Assembly: GCF_018310535.1 (NCBI RefSeq)
Contig: NZ_CP074102.1
Span: 6,758,001 to 6,822,000 of the forward strand
Reading direction: 5' to 3'
Length of the DNA stretch: 64,000 bases
Origin: Streptomyces mirabilis
GTDB lineage: Bacteria; Actinomycetota; Actinomycetes; Streptomycetales; Streptomycetaceae
A program made the position numbers and the translations under genes. The notes beneath the pieces were generated by a model. It was given only the letters and a program-made list of their open reading frames with translations. It searched no databases and had not been told where the DNA came from. Positions 13,525 through 37,462 of this stretch are shown piece by piece. Within the stretch, counting starts at the first letter, position 1; each line of letters begins with the position of its first letter.

Positions 13525-14859
13525 GTGAACACACAGAGATGGCATGGACATGCCACAGCAAGGCCGGCGACGACGGCCCTGCTGGTCGGTTGCACCGCTC
13601 TGGCCCTCGCCGTCACCGGCACCACCGCCCAGGCCCAGGCCCGGTCGGGCGACCTCGGTCGACAGACCCTCGCCGCCGGTGACGGTTGGGGCTCCGACGG
13701 CACGGGGACCTCCGGTGGTGCGGCGGCCGACGCCGCGCACGTGTACACCGTCACCACCTGGGCCGAGTTCAAGGCCGCGCTGAAGAGCGGCGGCACCGCC
13801 CCGAAGATCATCCAGGTGAAGGGCACGATCGACGCCAACGCCGAGGGCTGCGACTCCTTCGCCGCGCCGGGCTACGACTTCGACGCCTATCTGCAGAAGT
13901 ACTCCCCGGAGAACTGGGGATACGGCACCAACCTGGACGCCGAGCCCGATGACAGCCCCGAAGGCCTGCGCCGCGCCTCCGCCGCCAACCAGGACACCGC
14001 CATCAAGGCGGAGATCCCCGCCAACACCACTCTCGTCGGCCTCGGCAAGGGCGCGGGGTTCAAGGGCGCCAGCCTCCAGATCAAGGCCGTGGACAACGTC
14101 ATCGTCCGCAACCTCACCTTCGAGAGCCCGCTCGACTGCTTCCCGCAGTGGGACCCGACCGACACCTCCGTCGGCAACTGGAACTCCGAGTACGACAGCG
14201 CGGTGGTGTACGGCTCGACGCACGTCTGGCTGGACCACAACACCTTCACCGACGGGGACCACCCCGACAGCACGCTGCCCACGTACTTCGGCCGGATCTT
14301 CGAGCAGCACGACGGTGAGCTGGACATCGTCAAGGGCGCGGACTACGTGACCGCCTCCTGGAACGTCTTCGCCGACCACGACAAGACGATCCTCATCGGC
14401 AACAGCGACAGCGCGTCCACCGCCGCGGTCGACCGGGGCCACCTCAAGGTCACCTTCCACCACAACCTGTTCTCGAACCTCGTCGAGCGCGCGCCCCGCG
14501 TCCGCTTCGGCCAGGTCGACTCCTACAACAACCACTTCGTCGCGGGCGACGGCTACTCCTACAGCTACGGCATCGGCATGGAGTCCCAACTCGTCGCCCA
14601 GCACAACGCGTTCACGCTGCCCGCCGGGGTCAGCGCGGCGACCGTCCTGAAGAAGTGGAAGGAGGCGCCGCTCACCGCGGCGGACAACTACGTCAACGGG
14701 GCGGCCACCGACCTGATCGCCGTGCACAACGCGGAGATCCCGGCGGAGACGCTGCAGTCCGGGGCTGGATGGACGCCGACCCTGCGGACCAAGGTCGACT
14801 CGCCCAGGGCGGTGCCGCGGATCGTGGACCGCGGGGCGGGCGCCGGAAAGATCTGCTGA
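13525..14859 (+). CDS. secreted pectate lyase, polysaccharide lyase family 1
   Basis: The product has 444 residues. A signal sequence covers about 1-37. The right-handed beta helix carries VWLDHNTFTDGDH (the PL1 vWiDH motif, calcium-binding Asp) and ERAPRVRFGQVDSYNN, where the Arg abstracts the C5 proton. It cleaves polygalacturonate by calcium-dependent beta-elimination outside the cell. GTG at 13525 follows AAGGAGA by eight bases. It is part of the secreted pectin set. After its stop the 12-bp sequence GACCAGCTGATC appears twice (14858 and 14884). Confidence 0.92.
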   Translation: MNTQRWHGHATARPATTALLVGCTALALAVTGTTAQAQARSGDLGRQTLAAGDGWGSDGTGTSGGAAADAAHVYTVTTWAEFKAALKSGGTAPKIIQVKGTIDANAEGCDSFAAPGYDFDAYLQKYSPENWGYGTNLDAEPDDSPEGLRRASAANQDTAIKAEIPANTTLVGLGKGAGFKGASLQIKAVDNVIVRNLTFESPLDCFPQWDPTDTSVGNWNSEYDSAVVYGSTHVWLDHNTFTDGDHPDSTLPTYFGRIFEQHDGELDIVKGADYVTASWNVFADHDKTILIGNSDSASTAAVDRGHLKVTFHHNLFSNLVERAPRVRFGQVDSYNNHFVAGDGYSYSYGIGMESQLVAQHNAFTLPAGVSAATVLKKWKEAPLTAADNYVNGAATDLIAVHNAEIPAETLQSGAGWTPTLRTKVDSPRAVPRIVDRGAGAGKIC

Positions 14860-15004
14860 CCAGCTGATCCGGCTGATCCGGTCGACCAGCTGATCGGGTC
14901 GAACCGGCTCCGATCGTTGCAGCCCTTCTGGTCAGGCCGGAGCGGCTCCGCACCGCCCCTCACCCAGGGCGTGCCGCTCCGGCCCCTCGTCCCTCCCGCA
15001 GAGC

Positions 15005-15028
15005 CCGCGAGGCCTCTGAGCCTCGCGG
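15005..15028. terminator. 9-bp perfect hairpin ahead of pectinesterase 1
   Basis: CCGCGAGGC (15005-15013) pairs perfectly with GCCTCGCGG (15020-15028) across a six-base loop. It ends eight bases before the AAGGAG ribosome site of the pectinesterase, so it may terminate the PL1 transcript or shape the pectinesterase leader. There is no T-run. Confidence 0.5.
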
Positions 15029-15048
15029 CACAGCGAAGGAGCATCGCC

Positions 15049-16221
15049 ATGCTCTCCCGCACCACCACACCCGGTCCTGCCGTCTCCAGCCGGAGAACCT
15101 TCCTCGTCGCCAGTGCCGGGGCCGCTCTCGCGCTCGGCCTCGCGACTCCCGCGCGGGCCCAGGCGTGGCCCCAGGAGAAATCCCCCTTCGGGCGTTACGG
15201 TTCGCCGTCCGCCCGGCTCACCGAGCGCACCCTGTACGTCCACCCCGGCGGCCTCGGCGATCACACCACCGTCCAGGCCGCCGTCAGCGCCGGTGGGGGC
15301 ACCTCCCAGGCGTTAAGCACTGGGGGAGGGGCCGGATACAGCCTGGTCATCGCGCCGGGAACGTACCGGGAGACCGTCGCCGTCGGCGTCGCCCGTACGG
15401 AGATGACCTGGATCGGCGCCTCCGGGGACCCCCGTGACGTCGTCGTCGTGTACGACAACGCCAACGGCACGCCGAAGCCCGGCGGCGGTACCTACGGGAC
15501 CACCGGCTCGGCCACCACCACCGTGCAGGCCGACGGGTTCACCGCCCGTGGGATCACCTTCGCCAACGACTTCCTGCGCGCCGACCACCCCGAGATCACC
15601 GGCACCCAGGCGGTCGCCGTCAAGGTGCAGGGCGACCGCTCGGCGTTCGTGGGGTGCCGGTTCCTGGGCCACCAGGACACGCTGTACGCCGACTCGATCG
15701 CGCTCGGCACCTTCGCCCGCCAGTACTACCGCGACTGCTACGTCGAGGGTGACGTGGACTTCGTCTTCGGCCGGGCGAGCGCCGTCTTCGAGCGCTGCCA
15801 CTTCCGCACCCTGAACCGCACGGACCTGGCGGCCGCCCCGTACGGCTTCGTCTTCGCCCCCTCCACCGCGCTCGCCAACCCGCGCGGCTACCTGGTCACC
15901 CACGGCCGTGTCAGCAGCGAGGCCCCGGACGCGTACTACAAGCTCGCCCGCCCCTGGGTGCCGGGTTCGGACACCACCGCCCGGCCCATGCTGACCGTCC
16001 GCGACACCCGCCTCGCCGCCGGGATCGACGCGGTCGCGCCCTACACCGACATGGCGGACGCCTACCCCTGGCAGAGCCAGCGCTTCGCCGAGTACCGGAA
16101 CACGGGGCCGGGCGCGGTGATCAGCGTCCCGGAGAACCGTCCCCAACTGAGCGCCGTCGAGGCCGAGTCGGCGACCCGGGAGGCGTATCTCGGCGACTGG
16201 ACGCCGTGGAAGGGGTGCTGA
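15049..16221 (+). CDS. secreted pectinesterase 1 (CE8) with a repeat-derived insertion
   Basis: The product has 390 residues. SRRTFLVASAGA is a twin-arginine signal. The beta-helix body has GHQDTLYAD, the catalytic Asp motif GDVDFVFGRA and the RPW motif (KLARPWVPG) near residue 305. It demethylates homogalacturonan so that pectate lyases can act. Residues 82-94 (Gly/Ser/Thr-rich) have no counterpart in the adjacent paralogue and come from a palindromic DNA repeat at 15293-15334; this places a TTA codon (Leu89) in the frame. The ATG at 15049 follows AAGGAG by seven bases. About 60% similar to the next gene. Confidence 0.92.
   Translation: MLSRTTTPGPAVSSRRTFLVASAGAALALGLATPARAQAWPQEKSPFGRYGSPSARLTERTLYVHPGGLGDHTTVQAAVSAGGGTSQALSTGGGAGYSLVIAPGTYRETVAVGVARTEMTWIGASGDPRDVVVVYDNANGTPKPGGGTYGTTGSATTTVQADGFTARGITFANDFLRADHPEITGTQAVAVKVQGDRSAFVGCRFLGHQDTLYADSIALGTFARQYYRDCYVEGDVDFVFGRASAVFERCHFRTLNRTDLAAAPYGFVFAPSTALANPRGYLVTHGRVSSEAPDAYYKLARPWVPGSDTTARPMLTVRDTRLAAGIDAVAPYTDMADAYPWQSQRFAEYRNTGPGAVISVPENRPQLSAVEAESATREAYLGDWTPWKGC
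15293..15334. repeat. palindromic Streptomyces-type repeat inserted in frame in pectinesterase 1
   Basis: GGGGGCACCTCCC and GGGGGAGGGG flank a short centre containing GTTAAGC. CCTCCC pairs with GGGAGG. The element is absent from the paralogous gene at 16223. Similar GGGGGCACCTCCC...GGGGGAGG palindromes are, from memory, scattered through Streptomyces intergenic regions. Here it adds about 13 codons, including TTA at 15313-15315. Confidence 0.7.
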
Positions 16222-16222
16222 G

Positions 16223-17239
16223 ATGCGCCGACGCGCCTTCCTCACCACGGCCGGTGCGCTCACCGTCCTCGGCGCGACTCCCGCCTTCGCGGGCGGGCGC
16301 CGGGTGCTGCACGTCCGCCCCGGTGACTCCGTCCAGGCCGCCGTCGACGCGGTGACCGGCGCCGGCTGGACGATCGTCGTGCACCCGGGCACCTACCGCG
16401 AGGTCGTGAACATCCCCGCCGACAAGGCCGACCTGACACTGCGCGGTGCCACCCGTGACCCGCGCGACGTCGTCATCGTGTACGACCACGCGGGCGGCAC
16501 GCAGAAGCCCGACGGTTCGGGGACGTACGGCACCGCCGGCTCCGCCACCTTCACCTCGGCGGCGCCGGGGCTCACCGTGCAGGGGCTGACGCTCGCCAAC
16601 GACTGGCTGCGCGCCGACCACCCGGACATCACCGGGACGCAGGCGGTGGCGGCGTACGTCACCGGGGACCGCTCGTCCTTCACCCAGGTCCGCCTGCTGG
16701 CACACCAGGACACCCTGTTCGCGGACACGACGGCCCTGACCGCCTTCGACCGCCAGTACTACCGCGACTGCTACATCGAGGGCGACGTCGACTTCGTCTT
16801 CGGGCGGGCCACCGCCGTCTTCGAGCGCTGCCACTTCCACACCCTCGACCGGGACGTCACCTTCAGACCTGAGGGGATGGTCTTCGCGCCCTCCACGGCC
16901 CGCGCCAACCCGCACGGCTTCCTGGCCCTGCGCGGCCGGGTCACCTCGGGCGCGCAGGACGGGGCGTACAAGATCGCGCGGCCGTGGGTGCCGTCGTACG
17001 AGACGACGGCCTGGCCGTCCCTGGTCGTACGGGAGACGGAACTCGGCCCCGGCATCGACGCGGTGGCGCCCTACGTCAACATGCGCGAGGCCTACCCCTG
17101 GCAGTCCATGCGCTTTCGCGAGTACCGCAACACCGGCCCCGGCGCGGAGATCACCGTGCCGGAGAACCGTCCCCAGCTCACGGACACGGAAGCCATGTCG
17201 CACACGCGTGCGGCGTATCTCGGCGACTGGTGCCCGTGA
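16223..17239 (+). CDS. secreted pectinesterase 2 (CE8)
   Basis: The product has 338 residues. A short Tat-like signal (MRRRAFLTTAGALTVLGATPAFA) is followed directly by the beta helix. It has AHQDTLFAD, GDVDFVFGRA with the catalytic Asp, and IARPWVPSYETTAWP. It is closely related to the preceding gene across the whole fold, including the C-terminal ENRPQL motif and the YLGDW ending, so the two arose by tandem duplication. It starts one base after the previous stop and lacks the repeat insertion. It acts on pectin outside the cell. Confidence 0.92.
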   Translation: MRRRAFLTTAGALTVLGATPAFAGGRRVLHVRPGDSVQAAVDAVTGAGWTIVVHPGTYREVVNIPADKADLTLRGATRDPRDVVIVYDHAGGTQKPDGSGTYGTAGSATFTSAAPGLTVQGLTLANDWLRADHPDITGTQAVAAYVTGDRSSFTQVRLLAHQDTLFADTTALTAFDRQYYRDCYIEGDVDFVFGRATAVFERCHFHTLDRDVTFRPEGMVFAPSTARANPHGFLALRGRVTSGAQDGAYKIARPWVPSYETTAWPSLVVRETELGPGIDAVAPYVNMREAYPWQSMRFREYRNTGPGAEITVPENRPQLTDTEAMSHTRAAYLGDWCP

Positions 17240-17299
17240 TGGCCCCGCACCGATCACCGCAGTAGCTCCCCCACCCGCTCGACGAAAGGACCGCACTCC

Positions 17300-18412
17300 A
17301 TGTCTCGTCGAACCGCTCTCGCCCTAGGCGCCACCCTGGCGCTCGGCGCCGGACTCGCCGTCCTGCCCACCCAGGCCCAGGCGGCGACCGTCGTCGTCAG
17401 CACCACGGCCGACCTCACCAGCGCCATCAAGAACGCCACCGCCGGCACCGTCATCCAGGTGCGCGCCGGTACGTACTACCCGACGGCCACCCTCCAGTCG
17501 ACGGCCAACGGCACCTCGTCGAGCCCCGTCACCCTCCAGGCGTACGGCTCGGAGACGGTGAAGATCGACGGCTCGTCGCTGCCCGCCGGGGACTGGATCT
17601 TCAAGCTGACCGCAGACTACTGGAACGTCTCCAACCTCACCTTCCAGAACTCCCCGGACAGCGCGGTCGTCTGCCAGTCCTGCACCGGCACGAACTGGAA
17701 CAACATCAAGACCATCAACGGCGGCGATTCCGGCTTCACACTCACGGGTGACGGCACCGTCAACAACACGGTCAAGAACATCGACTCGTACGGCAACTAC
17801 GACGCCGCGGGCCATGGCGAGAACGCGGACGGCGTCGCCGTGAAGTTCGGCTCCGGCACCGGCAACCTGATCACCGGCGCCCGCCTGTACAACAACTCGG
17901 ACGACGGCATCGACTTCTGGTCCTTCTCGTCCCCCGTCACCGTCGAGCACACCTGGTCCTTCGGCAACGGGAAGAACCGCTGGGGCGACTCGGCCTTCGC
18001 GGGTGACGGCAACGGCTACAAGCTGGGCGGCGACGGCGAGGTCGTCGCGCACGTCGTCAACAACTCCGCCGCCTGGGACGACGCCGGCAACGGCTTCACC
18101 GAGAACTCCAACACCGGCTCGATCGTCATCAACCGCACCACCGCGTACGCCAACGGCAAGTACGGCTACTACTTCGCCACCAGCTCCACGAAGCTCGGCA
18201 AGAACCTGGCCGTCGGCAACGGCAGCGCGGCCGTCTCCAAGGGGTCCTCCGTCACGTCCTCCGGCAACAACTGGGACTCGGGCATCTCCACCCCGTCCTT
18301 CGTCTCCACGGACGCGTCGACGACGTACAACTCCCGCAAGTCCGACGGCTCGCTGCCCGCGACGACATTCCTGACGACGGGCAGTACGACGATCGGCGCC
18401 ACGATGAACTAG
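17300..18412 (+). CDS. secreted pectate lyase, polysaccharide lyase family 9 (copy 1)
   Basis: The product has 370 residues. A Sec signal ends near AQAA (about residue 30). The right-handed beta helix shows the PL9 calcium cluster, HGENADGVAVKFG and YNNSDDGIDFWSF, followed by GDGNGYKLGGDGE, whose Lys matches the catalytic lysine of PelL-type enzymes. It cuts polygalacturonate endo- or exolytically. Its paralogue at 27605 is very similar from the ATTV repeat start to the shared C-terminal LPATTFLTTGSTTIG. RBS GAAAGGA. Confidence 0.85.
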   Translation: MSRRTALALGATLALGAGLAVLPTQAQAATVVVSTTADLTSAIKNATAGTVIQVRAGTYYPTATLQSTANGTSSSPVTLQAYGSETVKIDGSSLPAGDWIFKLTADYWNVSNLTFQNSPDSAVVCQSCTGTNWNNIKTINGGDSGFTLTGDGTVNNTVKNIDSYGNYDAAGHGENADGVAVKFGSGTGNLITGARLYNNSDDGIDFWSFSSPVTVEHTWSFGNGKNRWGDSAFAGDGNGYKLGGDGEVVAHVVNNSAAWDDAGNGFTENSNTGSIVINRTTAYANGKYGYYFATSSTKLGKNLAVGNGSAAVSKGSSVTSSGNNWDSGISTPSFVSTDASTTYNSRKSDGSLPATTFLTTGSTTIGATMN

Positions 18413-19373: not shown

Positions 19374-22300
19374 CTATCCCTCGCCCAGAGCGGCGAGTCC
19401 CTTTCTGATGGCCGCGATGAATCCCGGATTGTTCCCCACAGCCTTCAATACTGAACGGGGGAGTCCGTCGAACTGTCCGGTCTCAAAATTGTACTGGTAC
19501 TTTGCGCTCTTGTTCGTCTGGTCCTGGAAGTGCAGCTGGCCGGGGCGCTGCCCAGGGTTGGGGTTTTCTACGTCGATTCGGTAGGGCCCCTGATTCCAGA
19601 GGGTTTTACTGGTGATCTGCGGACCGTTGGAGCCGATCATTCCCGCGGACTTGGGGTCGCGTATTCCGTACAGATCCCGCATGTCCTGAACGCGGTCGTC
19701 CACGGCCTTCGGGTGGTACGGGTCGTCCTTGAACGCGGGCTGGGAGCTGTAACCCTCCCTGAGCTGCGGGCAGGGTCCCAGGCCGAGCGGGTCCGACCAG
19801 GAGTACGGGTTGTGAACATACGCGGCCGGATTGGGGGCGGGCGCCAGACCGAGGGGGTCGGGCGAGAGATAGCGTGCGGTTTCGGGGTCGTAATAACGGA
19901 AGTAGTTGTAGTGCAGACCCGTTTCCGGGTCGGCGTACTGGCCGGGGAAACGGAGGGGGCAGTCCGTGTCCGCCCTGCCTCGGTCCTCGGGGCCGGGGAG
20001 ACCGGTGCCCCACAGGCCGGTGCGCCGCTGCCAGGTCACCTCGCCCTCGGCGGTGACCAGTTCGGCGGGAGCGCCTACGGCGTCCGTGACGATCGCGTGG
20101 AACCGGACGGCGCGATCGCCCGTGGTCTCCTCGGCCAGCCGGGCCAGGAAGGATTCCTGCGGGCCGCGCGGCGTTGGTGTGCGTTCGGTCTGCGCGACCG
20201 GCCGGTGTGTGTCGGGGGAGTAGTCCCAAGAGGTGACGCGGCCGTCGGGGGAGACCTGCTCGGCCAGGCGGGTGCCGTCCCACGAGAAGTCCGTGCGCGC
20301 GGTGACCGAGCCGTCCTCGGCGAGGCGCACCTTGGCGACGCGACGTCCGAGAGGGTCGTACAGGTACTGCCAGCACTCGCCGTCCGGGGTGGTCACCTCG
20401 GTCAGCCGGTCCTCGGCACTCCACGCGTACGTCCACGTGCGCCGCTGCCCGTTCAGGAGCATGCGTGCCCTGCGCACGAGTCGGCCCTGGGCGTCGTGAT
20501 CGTACGTCGTGCGATCGGCACTGCGGATGCGGGTGCCGTCGAAGGTGCGCTCGCCGGGCGCCTCGTGAGCCGGGGCGGTGGCGTGTGTGAGGTTGCCCGC
20601 GGTGTCGTAGGCGTAGGTCTCGCTCCAGCCGAGGGCGCGAACCCGGGTGACCCGGCCTGAGGCGTCCAGTTCGAATGACCGGGTGCCGGCGGTGAGTTCA
20701 CGGATCTCGGTGAGATAGCCATCGGGGCGATAGGCATAGGAGCGGTGCTGGAGAAGACGGTCGCCTGCCCCGTTTCCGGTGTCGGTCACCGCCTGGGACA
20801 TGAGGCGTCCAGCGGGGTCCCAGCTCTGGGAGAGCTCCACGTGGTCGCCGACAAGACGCCGTGTCTCCTGGCCGGCCGCGTCGTACTCGAACCTCACCTC
20901 TCCGGCGTCGTTGCAGAGTGCGACCGCGCGGCCCACCGGATCGTAGGTCCAGTGTGAAGCGAGTCCGGACGGTGTGGTGCGACGAGTGGTGCGTCCCAGG
21001 GCGTCGTAGGCGAACGCGGTCGTAAGGCCATTGACGGTCTCGCTGATGGTGCGGCCCGCCGCGTCGTACGCGAAACCGATCTCGGCGTCCGCGTTGCTCG
21101 CGGTGGCCGGACGGCCGCTCGCCGCGTAGGTGTAGACCGTCGTCCCGCCGGTGTCGTCGCGCTGTTCGGTGACGCGGCCGAGCGTGTCCCGTGTGAAGTG
21201 CAGCGTCTCGCCCGCGCCGTTTTTGCGCGAGACGAGTGCGCCCGTCGCGTCGTGCTCGTAGGCGAGGACTCGGCCGTCGAAGTCGGTCTCCGCGACGAGG
21301 CGCCCCGCTCTGTCGTACGAGTACGACCACTTTCGGCCCTGCGGGTTGGTGACGCCCGTGAGGCGCAGCTCCGTGTCATGCGTGAACGTGTAGGTCGTGC
21401 CGTCCGGCGCGGTACGGGTGGCGGGGGCGTCGAAAGGGGCGACGGCGTGGCGCGTGACGTTCCCCGCCAGGTCTGTGTGGGTCAGGAGATTGCCCTCGGC
21501 GTCCCAGGTCCATGACTCACGGGCGCCGTCCGGGAGTTCACGCCACTCAGGTCGACCCTCGACCGACCAGCTCATCCGCGTCGTGCGGCCCAGCGGATCG
21601 GCGACCCCTACGATCCGGCCGAAGGTGTCGCGGCGGATGGTGGTGACCTGCCCGAGTTCGTCGGTGACCGTCACGGGGAGCCCGGCGGAATTGGAAGTGA
21701 CCACTCGTGTGTGGCCGAGGGCATCGGTCAGGGTGGCCAGATGACCGGACTCGTCGTACGTGCAGCGGGTCTCGGCGCCGAGGGGGTCGCGGGTGGTGAG
21801 CAGATTGCCGCGGGAGTCGTAGGTGTGGCGCCACTCGGCACCACCGGGCTCCAGCACGTTGGCGGGCAGACCGAACGCGGTGTACGTCGCGCTCGCCACC
21901 GACCCGTCCGGCAGGGTGAGTTCGGTGAGGTTCCCGGCGCCGTCGTAGGCGAATCGGGTGGCACGCCCCAGCGGATCGGTGACGGTGAGGGGATGGGCCC
22001 CGTACGCGTCCCACTCCGTGCGAGTGACGTGCCCGAGCGGGTCCGTCTCCTCGACGACCAGACCCTCGGAGTTGTAACGATGGCTGGAGACGCGGCCGAG
22101 GGAGTCGGTGTACGTCGTCGTGGACGCCGCGTCGTCGTACGTCAGCGTGCCCGACAGGATGCCGTCGACGCCCTCGGTGCGGACGACCCGGCCACGCTCG
22201 TCGTACACGTACGAGAACCACGTGCCGTTGCGGTCGGTCCACCGGGTGACCCGGCCCTGTTCGTCGTACGTGAAACGCAGGGGCTCGCCGCTGGAGTTGA

Positions 22301-23735
22301 CGACCTCGGTGAGGTTGCCGGACGGGTCGTAGCCGTACCGCATGACGACCGTGCCCTCGCCCACCGGGCCGTCGGGGCCGTAGCGGTACGGGGCCTCGTC
22401 GAGCAGGCGCAGGGCCGTGATGCGGGGGCCCTGGGTGTCGACGGCCAGGTAGTAGCCGCCCGAGTGGCGGATCCCGAACGGCACGCCCTCGTCGTCGCGT
22501 TCGACGTCGATGCGGGCGCCGTTGCGGTCGCTCCAGGAGTCGAGCGGGAGGTGTACGACGCCGAACGAGCCCGACGAGAAGGGGGTGCTGAAGGTGCGGA
22601 CGACTCCGGAGACGGGGTCGGTGATGGTCATGACACCGTCGGGCTTGCCGTCCCAGAGCAGCGGCCAGCGGGCGCCCTTCACGGGGAGGGTCGCTACATC
22701 CGGCTCCGGTACGGGATACACGAGCCGCATGCCGTCCGCCGCCGCGAACACGACGCCCTCGCCGTCGATCTGCACGCACTCGTCGAGGGTGGAGATCCAG
22801 GTCGGGCCGAAGCAGACGCCGCCGCGATAGGAGGAGAGGTGGGTGCGCTGGAAGAGAAGCGGGAGGGAGGCCGGCAGCGTCACGTCGGTCTGGGCCATCA
22901 GCATGGCACCGGTCGCCACATCGATCGGCTCGCCCACGCACGGGACGCGGTCGGCCTGGCGGGCCGACGGCCCCAGCTCGACCAGGTCGGGGCGGAGCGA
23001 CGGCGGGCGCAGCAGGAGGGGAGTGGTGTCGCTGAACGCGCCCTCCACGCCCGCCTTCAGTACGCCGCTGCCCGCGCCCAGCGCGCCGCCGAAGATCATG
23101 CCGTCCTTGGCGGCCTGGTTGACCTCGTCCAGGCTGAAGCCCTGCTGCAGACCGGTGACCATCTTCAGGGGCTGGGCCACGGCCAGATCGACGGTGACCG
23201 ACTCGACCCCGCCGAAGGCCGCCGCGACCAGGGTGCCCGCCGCTATCTCCGCGACGGTGGTGGAGACGGCGATGCCCATGGTGGCGCCGAACTCGATGAT
23301 GGCGTCGGCCGCCGCGACGGCGGCTCCGGAGGCGAGGCCCGCCGTGAAGAAGGCCAGCGCCACCCCGCCCGCGATCACGGCGGCGTCGATGCCGATCTGC
23401 GTCCAGAGTTTGTTGATGGCGTCGTCGATGGCGTCCGCGAACTTGTCCAGGGCCTTCGCCATCGCCCGGGACGACTCCGCCAGGTCGCTCAGCCAGCCGG
23501 CGTCCTTGCCCTTGGCGTAGCGGTCCCAGAACTTCTCGAACGCGTCGATCGATTCGCCGGAGTTGTGGTGGATGAGGGAGGACGCGCTCGTGTGCACCGG
23601 TCCGCGTACGTCGTCGACCGCGTCGGCGAAGGTGCGCCAGGCGGTCGCCGCGGCCCGCAGCGAACCGGAGTTGGCGTCCGGCCACCACAGGCCCAGCTTC
23701 AGCAGGATCTTCTTGGCCTCGTCCTCAACGCTCAC
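19374..23735 (-). CDS. Rhs-repeat polymorphic toxin, putative type VII-secreted
   Basis: The product has 1453 residues. Residues 1-120 are a helical WXG/T7SS-like N-terminal domain; about 125-235 are hydrophobic Ala/Gly-rich. A DUF6531 entry motif follows (CVGEPIDVATGAMLMAQTDV, about 270). Then comes a long array of YD/RHS repeats (forms of YDxxGRLxxxTD) and the core end with FRYYDPETARYLSPDPLGL near 1290. The last 133 residues (1321-1453; nt 19377-19775) are a distinct tip with HPKAVDDR and PGQLHFQD, resembling predicted RNase-type polymorphic toxin domains from memory, but not identified. GTG start overlaps the WXG gene by 11 bases. Confidence 0.88.
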   Translation of the reverse strand: MSVEDEAKKILLKLGLWWPDANSGSLRAAATAWRTFADAVDDVRGPVHTSASSLIHHNSGESIDAFEKFWDRYAKGKDAGWLSDLAESSRAMAKALDKFADAIDDAINKLWTQIGIDAAVIAGGVALAFFTAGLASGAAVAAADAIIEFGATMGIAVSTTVAEIAAGTLVAAAFGGVESVTVDLAVAQPLKMVTGLQQGFSLDEVNQAAKDGMIFGGALGAGSGVLKAGVEGAFSDTTPLLLRPPSLRPDLVELGPSARQADRVPCVGEPIDVATGAMLMAQTDVTLPASLPLLFQRTHLSSYRGGVCFGPTWISTLDECVQIDGEGVVFAAADGMRLVYPVPEPDVATLPVKGARWPLLWDGKPDGVMTITDPVSGVVRTFSTPFSSGSFGVVHLPLDSWSDRNGARIDVERDDEGVPFGIRHSGGYYLAVDTQGPRITALRLLDEAPYRYGPDGPVGEGTVVMRYGYDPSGNLTEVVNSSGEPLRFTYDEQGRVTRWTDRNGTWFSYVYDERGRVVRTEGVDGILSGTLTYDDAASTTTYTDSLGRVSSHRYNSEGLVVEETDPLGHVTRTEWDAYGAHPLTVTDPLGRATRFAYDGAGNLTELTLPDGSVASATYTAFGLPANVLEPGGAEWRHTYDSRGNLLTTRDPLGAETRCTYDESGHLATLTDALGHTRVVTSNSAGLPVTVTDELGQVTTIRRDTFGRIVGVADPLGRTTRMSWSVEGRPEWRELPDGARESWTWDAEGNLLTHTDLAGNVTRHAVAPFDAPATRTAPDGTTYTFTHDTELRLTGVTNPQGRKWSYSYDRAGRLVAETDFDGRVLAYEHDATGALVSRKNGAGETLHFTRDTLGRVTEQRDDTGGTTVYTYAASGRPATASNADAEIGFAYDAAGRTISETVNGLTTAFAYDALGRTTRRTTPSGLASHWTYDPVGRAVALCNDAGEVRFEYDAAGQETRRLVGDHVELSQSWDPAGRLMSQAVTDTGNGAGDRLLQHRSYAYRPDGYLTEIRELTAGTRSFELDASGRVTRVRALGWSETYAYDTAGNLTHATAPAHEAPGERTFDGTRIRSADRTTYDHDAQGRLVRRARMLLNGQRRTWTYAWSAEDRLTEVTTPDGECWQYLYDPLGRRVAKVRLAEDGSVTARTDFSWDGTRLAEQVSPDGRVTSWDYSPDTHRPVAQTERTPTPRGPQESFLARLAEETTGDRAVRFHAIVTDAVGAPAELVTAEGEVTWQRRTGLWGTGLPGPEDRGRADTDCPLRFPGQYADPETGLHYNYFRYYDPETARYLSPDPLGLAPAPNPAAYVHNPYSWSDPLGLGPCPQLREGYSSQPAFKDDPYHPKAVDDRVQDMRDLYGIRDPKSAGMIGSNGPQITSKTLWNQGPYRIDVENPNPGQRPGQLHFQDQTNKSAKYQYNFETGQFDGLPRSVLKAVGNNPGFIAAIRKGLAALGEG

Positions 23736-35880: not shown

Positions 35881-35932
35881 ACCGCTGGTGGGTGAGACAA
35901 GAACTGCGGCATTACATCTGGAGGGACCCGCG

Positions 35933-37462
35933 GTGGCAGCAGCACCAGTCTGGAGTGTCGACCCCCGTACCGGGAAGCAGCGCGAGCAGGTTGCGGTGGA
36001 GGCCACGGCCCAGGAGGTCGACGAGGCCGTCCGCGCCGCGCACACCGCCCGGGGAGCCCTCGCCGACCGCACGGTGCGCGCGGCCTTCCTGAGGACCGCC
36101 GCGGACCTGCTCGAAGCGGCCAAGGAACAGCTCGTCGAGGCCGCCGACGCCGAGACCGCGCTCGGCCCGGTCCGGCTCACCGGCGAACTCGCCCGCACCT
36201 GCTACCAGCTGCGGGCCTTCGGCGGCATCGTCGACGAGGGCGCGTTCCTCGACGTCGTCATCAACCACCCCGACGACACGGCGACCCCGCCGATCCCGGA
36301 CCTGCGCCGCTACAAGGTGCCGCTGGGCGTCGTCGCCGTCTACTCCGCCTCGAACTTCCCCTTCGCCTTCTCCGTCGCGGGCGGCGACACCGCGAGCGCG
36401 CTGGCGGCCGGCTGCCCGGTCGTGGTCAAGGCCCATCCCGACCACCCGGCGCTCTCCGAGCTGGTCGCGGCCGTGCTGCGCCGGGCCGCCGCCCAGCACG
36501 ACATCCCGGGCGGTGTCGTCGGCCTCGTGCACGGCTTCGAGGCGGGCGTCGAACTCGTCAAGCACCCGCTGGTCGCGGCGGCCGGGTTCACCGGTTCCAT
36601 CCGTGGCGGACGTGCCCTCTTCGACGCGGCGGCCGCGCGCCCCGTGCCGATCCCCTTCCACGGCGAGCTGGGCTCTCTCAACCCCGTCGTGATCACCGAG
36701 GCCGCGGCGGCCGAACGCGCCGAGGCGATCGGCGCCGGGCTCGCGGGCTCGATGACGCTGGGCGTCGGCCAGTTCTGCGTGAAGCCGGGCCTGGTCCTGG
36801 CGCCCGCGGGCGCGGCGGGCGACCGCCTGGTGAAGTCCCTGACCGACGCCGTCAGCGACACCGACGCGGGCGTCCTCCTGGACCACCGCATGCGCGACAA
36901 CTTCATCGCGGGTGTCGCCGAGCGCGCCGGGCTTCCCGGCGTCGAGACCCCGGTGACCCCGGGCTCGGGCGGCGAGCACACGGTGAGCCCCGGCTTCCTG
37001 ACCGTGCCCGCGCAGAAGCTCGCCACCGAGGGCGAGCACGACCTGCTCCTGGAGGAGTGCTTCGGCCCGCTCACGGTCGTCGCCCGTTACGAGGACGAGT
37101 CCGAGGCCAGCGCGGTCCTCTCCCGCCTTCCCGGCAACCTCACCGCGACCGTGCAGCTGTCGACGGAGGAGGCGGCGGGCGAAGGCCGCGGCGCGGAGAT
37201 CCTCGCCGAGCTGACCCCGCTCGCCGGGCGCGTGCTGGTCAACGGCTGGCCCACCGGTGTCGCCGTGGCCCCCGCCCAGCACCACGGCGGTCCCTACCCG
37301 GCGACGACCTCGACCTCGACGTCGGTCGGCGGTACGGCGATCGAACGCTGGCTGCGGCCGGTGGCGTACCAGAACGCGCCGGAGGCGCTGCTGCCGGCGG
37401 AGCTGCGGGACGACAACCCGCTGGGGTTGCCGCGACGCTACGACGGTCGTCTGGAGCGGTAG
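35933..37462 (+). CDS. aldehyde dehydrogenase, alpha-ketoglutaric semialdehyde dehydrogenase type
   Basis: The product has 509 residues. The oxyanion Asn141 lies in YSASNFPFAFS; general base Glu245 is in FHGELGSLNP and nucleophile Cys282 in GQFCVKPG. The SASNFPFAFS variant and the FHGELGSLNP motif are those of NADP-dependent 2,5-dioxopentanoate (alpha-ketoglutaric semialdehyde) dehydrogenases. It would turn the product of the pentonate enzymes at 2.9-5.5 kb into 2-oxoglutarate. Start GTG at 35933 was chosen because GGAGGG (35920-35925) is seven bases before; the frame is open further upstream. Control by the divergent IclR is likely. Confidence 0.85.
   Translation: MAAAPVWSVDPRTGKQREQVAVEATAQEVDEAVRAAHTARGALADRTVRAAFLRTAADLLEAAKEQLVEAADAETALGPVRLTGELARTCYQLRAFGGIVDEGAFLDVVINHPDDTATPPIPDLRRYKVPLGVVAVYSASNFPFAFSVAGGDTASALAAGCPVVVKAHPDHPALSELVAAVLRRAAAQHDIPGGVVGLVHGFEAGVELVKHPLVAAAGFTGSIRGGRALFDAAAARPVPIPFHGELGSLNPVVITEAAAAERAEAIGAGLAGSMTLGVGQFCVKPGLVLAPAGAAGDRLVKSLTDAVSDTDAGVLLDHRMRDNFIAGVAERAGLPGVETPVTPGSGGEHTVSPGFLTVPAQKLATEGEHDLLLEECFGPLTVVARYEDESEASAVLSRLPGNLTATVQLSTEEAAGEGRGAEILAELTPLAGRVLVNGWPTGVAVAPAQHHGGPYPATTSTSTSVGGTAIERWLRPVAYQNAPEALLPAELRDDNPLGLPRRYDGRLER

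Follow-up and report, generated by a model that had tools for sequence, protein, structure and literature searches.

The closest described parallels to the element considered here are the Rickettsia palindromic elements (RPEs) and the GTAG and CGTC classes of REP. RPEs are palindromic repeats that lie in frame within unrelated protein genes, whose products are likely still functional (PMC10969869, PMC3733652), and the portion of the review drawn on here gives their length as about 150 bp. The GTAG and CGTC REPs are palindromes of 20-40 bp, some of which are located within ORFs, and the same portion describes the CGTC class as having no known dedicated transposase (PMC3733652). The text of the latter article contains no occurrence of the word Streptomyces, and no description of the repeat discussed below was found among the literature matches listed, from a scope that leaves out most subscription papers. 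The exact text of its left arm returned one match, in an unrelated axolotl paper.

How does a pectinesterase gene of Streptomyces mirabilis compare with such systems? The window, that is the whole stretch of 64,000 nucleotides that was analysed, contains two tandem pectinesterase genes, of which the first carries a short repeat and the second does not. The features referred to in the text are as follows.

15049..16221, plus strand: PME1 (pectinesterase 1), an ORF of 390 aa matching PF01095 (E 1e-31), which carries the repeat.
15294..15329, plus strand: the repeat copy, composed of T + GGGGGCACCTCCC + core AGGCGTTAAGCACT + GGGGGAGG and read as GGTSQALSTGGG.
15295..15307, plus strand: the left part of the repeat, GGGGGCACCTCCC, conserved in the genome and genus pattern census.
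15308..15321, plus strand: the core, AGGCGTTAAGCACT, variable, as judged from core variants, folds and pairing across copies.
15313..15315, plus strand: the TTA codon (codon 89, Leu89), in the core loop.
15322..15329, plus strand: the right part of the repeat, GGGGGAGG, conserved in the same census.
16223..17239, plus strand: PME2 (pectinesterase 2), the paralogue without the repeat, an ORF matching PF01095 (E 9.4e-29).

PME1 runs from an ATG at 15049 to a TGA at 16219-16221, and within it the element forms a 35-bp imperfect palindrome at 15295-15329, in frame, with the reading GGG GGC ACC TCC CAG GCG TTA AGC ACT GGG GGA GG. The T that precedes it is the commonest base in front of the five G in other copies of the repeat, according to flank composition. 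The sequence bears out the original prediction in so far as a palindromic repeat, in frame, brings with it the TTA at 15313-15315 (Leu89), and the paralogue at 16223 is without the insert; the predicted excess of about 13 codons comes down to a net gain of 10 when orthologues lacking the insert are used as the reference. In the predicted RNA fold of this copy the core segment GTTAA is unpaired, and Rfam gives no matches across 14800-17400 of the window. An AlphaFold2 model of PME1 built on 39 sequences has a mean pLDDT of 62.9, which is moderate overall; residues 85-94 are below 50, and confidence is higher in the helix that precedes them (75-81) and in the strand that follows (98-101). A flexible loop fits the low values at residues 85-94, and the insert probably lengthens a loop that joins the N-terminal helix of the pectinesterase fold to the next strand. 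The dN/dS of PME1 is 0.21 against S. diastatochromogenes (L005) and 0.17 against S. olivochromogenes (L006), ratios that average both lineages and whose clock does not start at the insertion, and on these values PME1 is without obvious decay; against the same two relatives PME2 gives 0.26 and 0.35. Elsewhere in the window, an ORF of 1453 aa on the minus strand (19374-23735) has repeated YD-type motifs by eye and may be RHS-like.

The Streptomyces repeat is like the RPEs, as the sources above describe them in part, in being a dispersed palindrome, in frame within genes of unrelated kinds, whose orthologues may have the site empty. It differs from them in being found only in Streptomyces among the samples, in having one strongly preferred strand and frame, and in its length, which is 31-44 bp over 131 copies rather than about 150 bp; the two are set side by side by description only, and on account of this length the repeat may be said to work like an RPE without being filed as one. 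The reading favoured here, at a probability of about 0.8, is that a Streptomyces palindromic repeat enters genes in frame, that it is tolerated as a Gly/Ser loop and that the TTA codon in PME1 is incidental. The short repeat would be mobile, its copies would survive, probably as neutral additions, wherever a Gly/Ser-rich stretch of some 11 to 14 residues is tolerated, and the TTA of PME1 would be one of several loop-codon variants (TTA, TTT, TTC, TTG, TCA), not placed for control. As a side effect, full translation of PME1 would need the bldA tRNA in its own strain, and PME2, which is probably coupled, may also be affected by bldA.

Fundamental to this reading is the repeat family itself. The whole two-armed pattern, GGGGGCACCTCCC-N(4-34)-GGGGGAGG, was counted against the same pattern read backwards as a control, and in the strain's own 9.62-Mb genome there are four copies and no backward match, which is the outcome of the genome search that had been proposed with the original prediction. 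Across the genus, 120 of the 199 Streptomyces genomes drawn have the whole pattern and the backward control is 0 in every row, so that the palindrome is indeed scattered in Streptomyces genomes as had been supposed. A class-wide draw of 246 genomes, taken as raw counts with no correction for size or GC and with Streptomyces as the sole genus of its family, has the pattern in 15 of 22 Streptomyces and in none of 224 genomes from other Actinomycete genera. The left arm is not significant alone, since GGGGGCACCTCCC with up to one mismatch occurs once in the window where 0.34 is expected, and at least once in 33 of 100 shuffles. A chance resemblance of the PME1 insert to the repeat is rejected by the whole-pattern census with its backward control.

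The outer parts of the repeat are conserved, the conserved part being TGGGGGCACCTCCC...GGGGGAGG, and the core changes in both length and sequence with its pairing kept. A single copy folds modestly better than shuffled versions, weakly so with a z of -1.55 as DNA and -1.45 as RNA. Over the 83 distinct cores, arm positions 1-3 pair in 75, 79 and 51 cases where the shuffles average 65, 42 and 29, and none of the 2000 shuffles reached the observed counts; the fourth arm position has no pairing excess among these cores (34 vs 36 in shuffles). The core subtype of PME1, allowing up to one mismatch, is found at 20 places in 17 of 392 genomes, where the loop contains TTA, TTG, TTC, TTT or TCA. In four genomes a copy of this subtype with a TTG loop (L205, L212, L214 and L220) has coding signal of opposite strands on its two sides, a position that is possibly between convergent genes and terminator-like. 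The highly populated 5.7-Mb genome G089 has 75 copies of the repeat, including composites such as L289, where one right end follows directly on another; of the 75, 10 distinct copies were read, and all of these are outside genes or unclear. One of the copies in the S. mirabilis genome (L002, G000:C1:5874373-5874409) lies antisense and in frame inside an MFS transporter gene, where its CTTAAG is read in the frame of that gene as CTT AAG.

The relationship of the repeat to genes was read at 134 places, comprising 4 from the strain's own genome, 30 that were the first of their genome, 20 of the PME1 subtype and 80 hand-picked from the copy list. With L211 removed as having no element under the pattern and L217 and L300 as duplicates, 131 distinct copies are left, which form a non-random sample that includes some orthologous sites; L225, a tRNA locus, is not counted as an element. 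Without annotation, a codon model whose training set was 371 long, high-GC3 ORFs of the loci read places 56 of the 131 copies within a coding frame and 75 outside genes or in unclear positions. In 46 of the 56 the repeat is read on one strand and in one frame, giving GGTS (Gly-Gly-Thr-Ser) and mostly ending in GGG, with five of the rest in another sense frame and five antisense. Against an expectation of 1/6 this corresponds to a binomial p of 1e-26, a value that overstates independence, since the 56 copies fall into 40 homology groups. Core lengths of 32, 35, 38 or 41 account for 46 of the 56 copies in genes vs 29 of the 75 outside genes or unclear. The host ORFs belong to unrelated families, and 19 of the 20 that were scanned, out of the 56, have a Pfam match; these hosts include a UvrD-type helicase, PNKP ligase, a HutH-like aromatic lyase, FdhD, TatD, RsgA, SpoIIE, class I lysyl-tRNA synthetase, phenylalanyl-tRNA synthetase beta and anthranilate synthase.

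Filled and empty orthologous sites are both seen in three genes, namely PME1, the HutH-like gene and a Peptidase_S9 gene. For instance, in an even draw across the genus, in which 2 of the 30 loci share their flank with another, the HutH-like site is filled in 6 of the 30, or in 8 of 32 rows when two known carriers are added. When empty, as in the 24 other rows, the site reads DGRV (e.g. CCC GAC GGC CGC); when filled, the element replaces GAC, and it does so with several different cores, at least one of which is decayed. The HutH-like tree has 7 changes, at least 3 of them forced, and its carriers are unclustered, 268 of 500 shuffles being as low.

The history at PME1 is more complex to follow. 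Of 1565 homologues in a protein search 120 were listed, and 14 of these have the insert, always at one residue; three of the 120 (P0024, P0041 and P0059) gave no match to the site regex and were scored as non-carriers. The insert is absent from P0002 (the closest row in the tree, at 98% identity across 369 columns), from S. diastatochromogenes (L005) and S. olivochromogenes (L006), and from all of 80 GTDB r220 loci, these being the best 80 of 105 relatives in a collection where records near the strain's own genome may be absent. That the insert is unique to its own genome, which the 0 of 80 suggested, was rejected on the 14 listed carriers. A typed 44-residue probe matched 159 of 392 genomes, and among the matches listed at least four genomes, the strain's own included, have a match length that fits the insert. 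The sharing of one Gly/Ser loop by all distant orthologues, which had been named as an outcome counting against the original prediction, is not what is seen, given the 14 of 120 homologues and 0 of 80 loci; at the place of the insert the locus L051 has a loop that is longer and of another kind. A quick tree of 126 rows, built after the insert had been removed, has 18 carriers and 11 changes, at least 8 of which are forced by starred branches, and the insert has therefore often been gained and lost, or been received by recombination.

In place of repeated insertion, homologous recombination could have carried insert alleles of PME1 from one species to another, or these alleles could descend from one old insertion followed by many losses, and this is a rather unlikely possibility. 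It would account for the fact that most PME1 carriers are variants of one core subtype, GGTSQAxSTGG, with other genes having other cores, and that the PME1 carriers are more clustered than in any of 500 label shuffles, though the tree still needs its eight or more changes. The HutH-like site, where clearly different cores are found in different lineages and the carriers are unclustered, tells against it, as the spread of one allele is no explanation for different cores at a single site.

What, then, is the significance of the TTA codon? TTA is a rare leucine codon in Streptomyces and is read by the bldA tRNA. PME1 is like the genes under bldA/TTA control in having an in-frame TTA in a genome where a typed bldA query finds its match, at 95% identity, in a gene for tRNA-Leu(TAA), and this combination makes PME1 a formal candidate for bldA dependence, which is plausible in its own strain. 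It is unlike bldA/TTA control in that the codon came with the repeat and is not conserved. Among the 14 listed carriers the Leu89 position is occupied by Phe ten times, by Leu three times and by Val once, and in the four carrier genomes with DNA the codons are TTA, TTT, TTC and CTC, so that TTA is found in 1 of the 4. Copies in genes have an in-frame TTA in 2 cases of 56, these being PME1 and the Peptidase_S9 gene of G022, in which a 37-bp copy (L238 / L383, G022:C99:65987-66023) gives TTA through an unusual frame; at the orthologues of this gene the insert is absent from 13 of the 14 loci readable with a site regex, out of 30. One common TTA-bearing subtype is within a gene at 1 of 30 loci read, which is again the G022 Peptidase_S9 gene. 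TTA-bearing copies on either strand account for 5 of 56 in genes vs 16 of 75 outside, a difference that is not significant (Fisher p 0.09).

The original prediction suggested that the repeat may have put PME1 under bldA control. An adaptive form of this idea, in which such control extends to PME1 and conceivably PME2 and times the attack on pectin with development, appears improbable. In its favour, the codon lies in frame at position 89 of 390 in a strain that has the bldA tRNA gene, and TTA is rare, at 0.063 per 1000 codons in training genes whose high-GC3 filter biases the figure low; the window has 2 TTA codons in 40 codon-model genes (14555 codons), of which that in PME1 is one. The other is codon 9 of the called frame in an ORF of the aldehyde dehydrogenase family (PF00171) at 35888-37462 on the plus strand. 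TTA codons are also described, in the parts of the sources drawn on, from Streptomyces cellulose-utilisation genes (PMC5332605, PMC4255298), and this precedent in polymer-degrading genes leaves room for an adaptive role. Against it stand the fact that carriers of the insert have not kept the codon, its rarity in copies within genes, the absence of any sign that it is selected as a control, and the literature, in so far as it is represented here, in which TTA codons are for the most part not well conserved when 213 species are compared (PMC10327506). As the TTA is not kept among carriers and is rare in copies within genes it looks incidental, and the simplest reading of the sequences is that it is an accident of the loop.

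The original prediction also held that the twin of PME1 had stayed free of bldA, which is doubtful, since the gap between the PME1 stop and the PME2 ATG at 16223 is one base, and PME2 may thus not be free of bldA. In two homologues (P0001 and L019) both pectinesterase domains are fused in one frame as a double pectinesterase, and together with the one-base gap this makes coupled translation of the pair likely, with PME2 probably following PME1.

CGTC REPs are marked by an unpaired end tag of CGTC (or TGTC/CCTC), a stem of 8-9 bp and a CCA tail. In six variants of the Streptomyces repeat that were folded the CCTCCC part is mostly paired, with CCTC present, not as an unpaired tag, and, unlike the GTAG REPs, the copies have no GTAG in their flank consensus. 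That the repeat is a REP of the GTAG type mobilised by a RAYT is very improbable: it is a short dispersed palindrome with some copies within ORFs, as are the intragenic GTAG and CGTC REPs in the portion of PMC3733652 drawn on, but the Y1 transposase domain PF01797 is found in none of four many-copy genomes (G089 with its 75 copies, G018, G096 and G120). The domain is present in 3 of the 7 genomes searched (G000, which is the strain's own, G141 and G196). The idea that pectinesterases have long varied in length in the ordinary way at this Gly/Ser loop, and that its DNA came to look like the repeat by chance or codon bias, would suit the finding of this insert in several species at one and the same residue, and the different loop of L051, but is scarcely credible in view of the 35-bp match to a dispersed repeat, the presence of the same core in other genomes, both within unrelated genes and outside genes, the close relatives without the insert and the fact that the repeat is not confined to pectinesterase genes.

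A broader form of the favoured reading can be put forward tentatively, at somewhat less than even odds. It would see in the repeat a family of Streptomyces' own, made up of palindromic elements that are very short and prefer certain sites, repeatedly entering the same codon of the same genes on one strand and in one frame, exchanging cores and adding Gly/Ser loops to essential and metabolic enzymes, where the occasional TTA, as in PME1 and the prolyl oligopeptidase-family gene of another genome, could give bldA dependence in one step. Provided that the family is genuine and mobile, Streptomyces, a genus of industrial importance, would have in it a natural mutagen that inserts peptides and whose targets include enzymes, tRNA synthetases and repair genes. 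The repeat would also provide a concrete route for the turnover of TTA codons between close relatives that is reported in PMC10327506 and PMC4255298, and in PME1 the origin of such a repeat-borne TTA can be followed base by base, even if the codon itself is apparently incidental.
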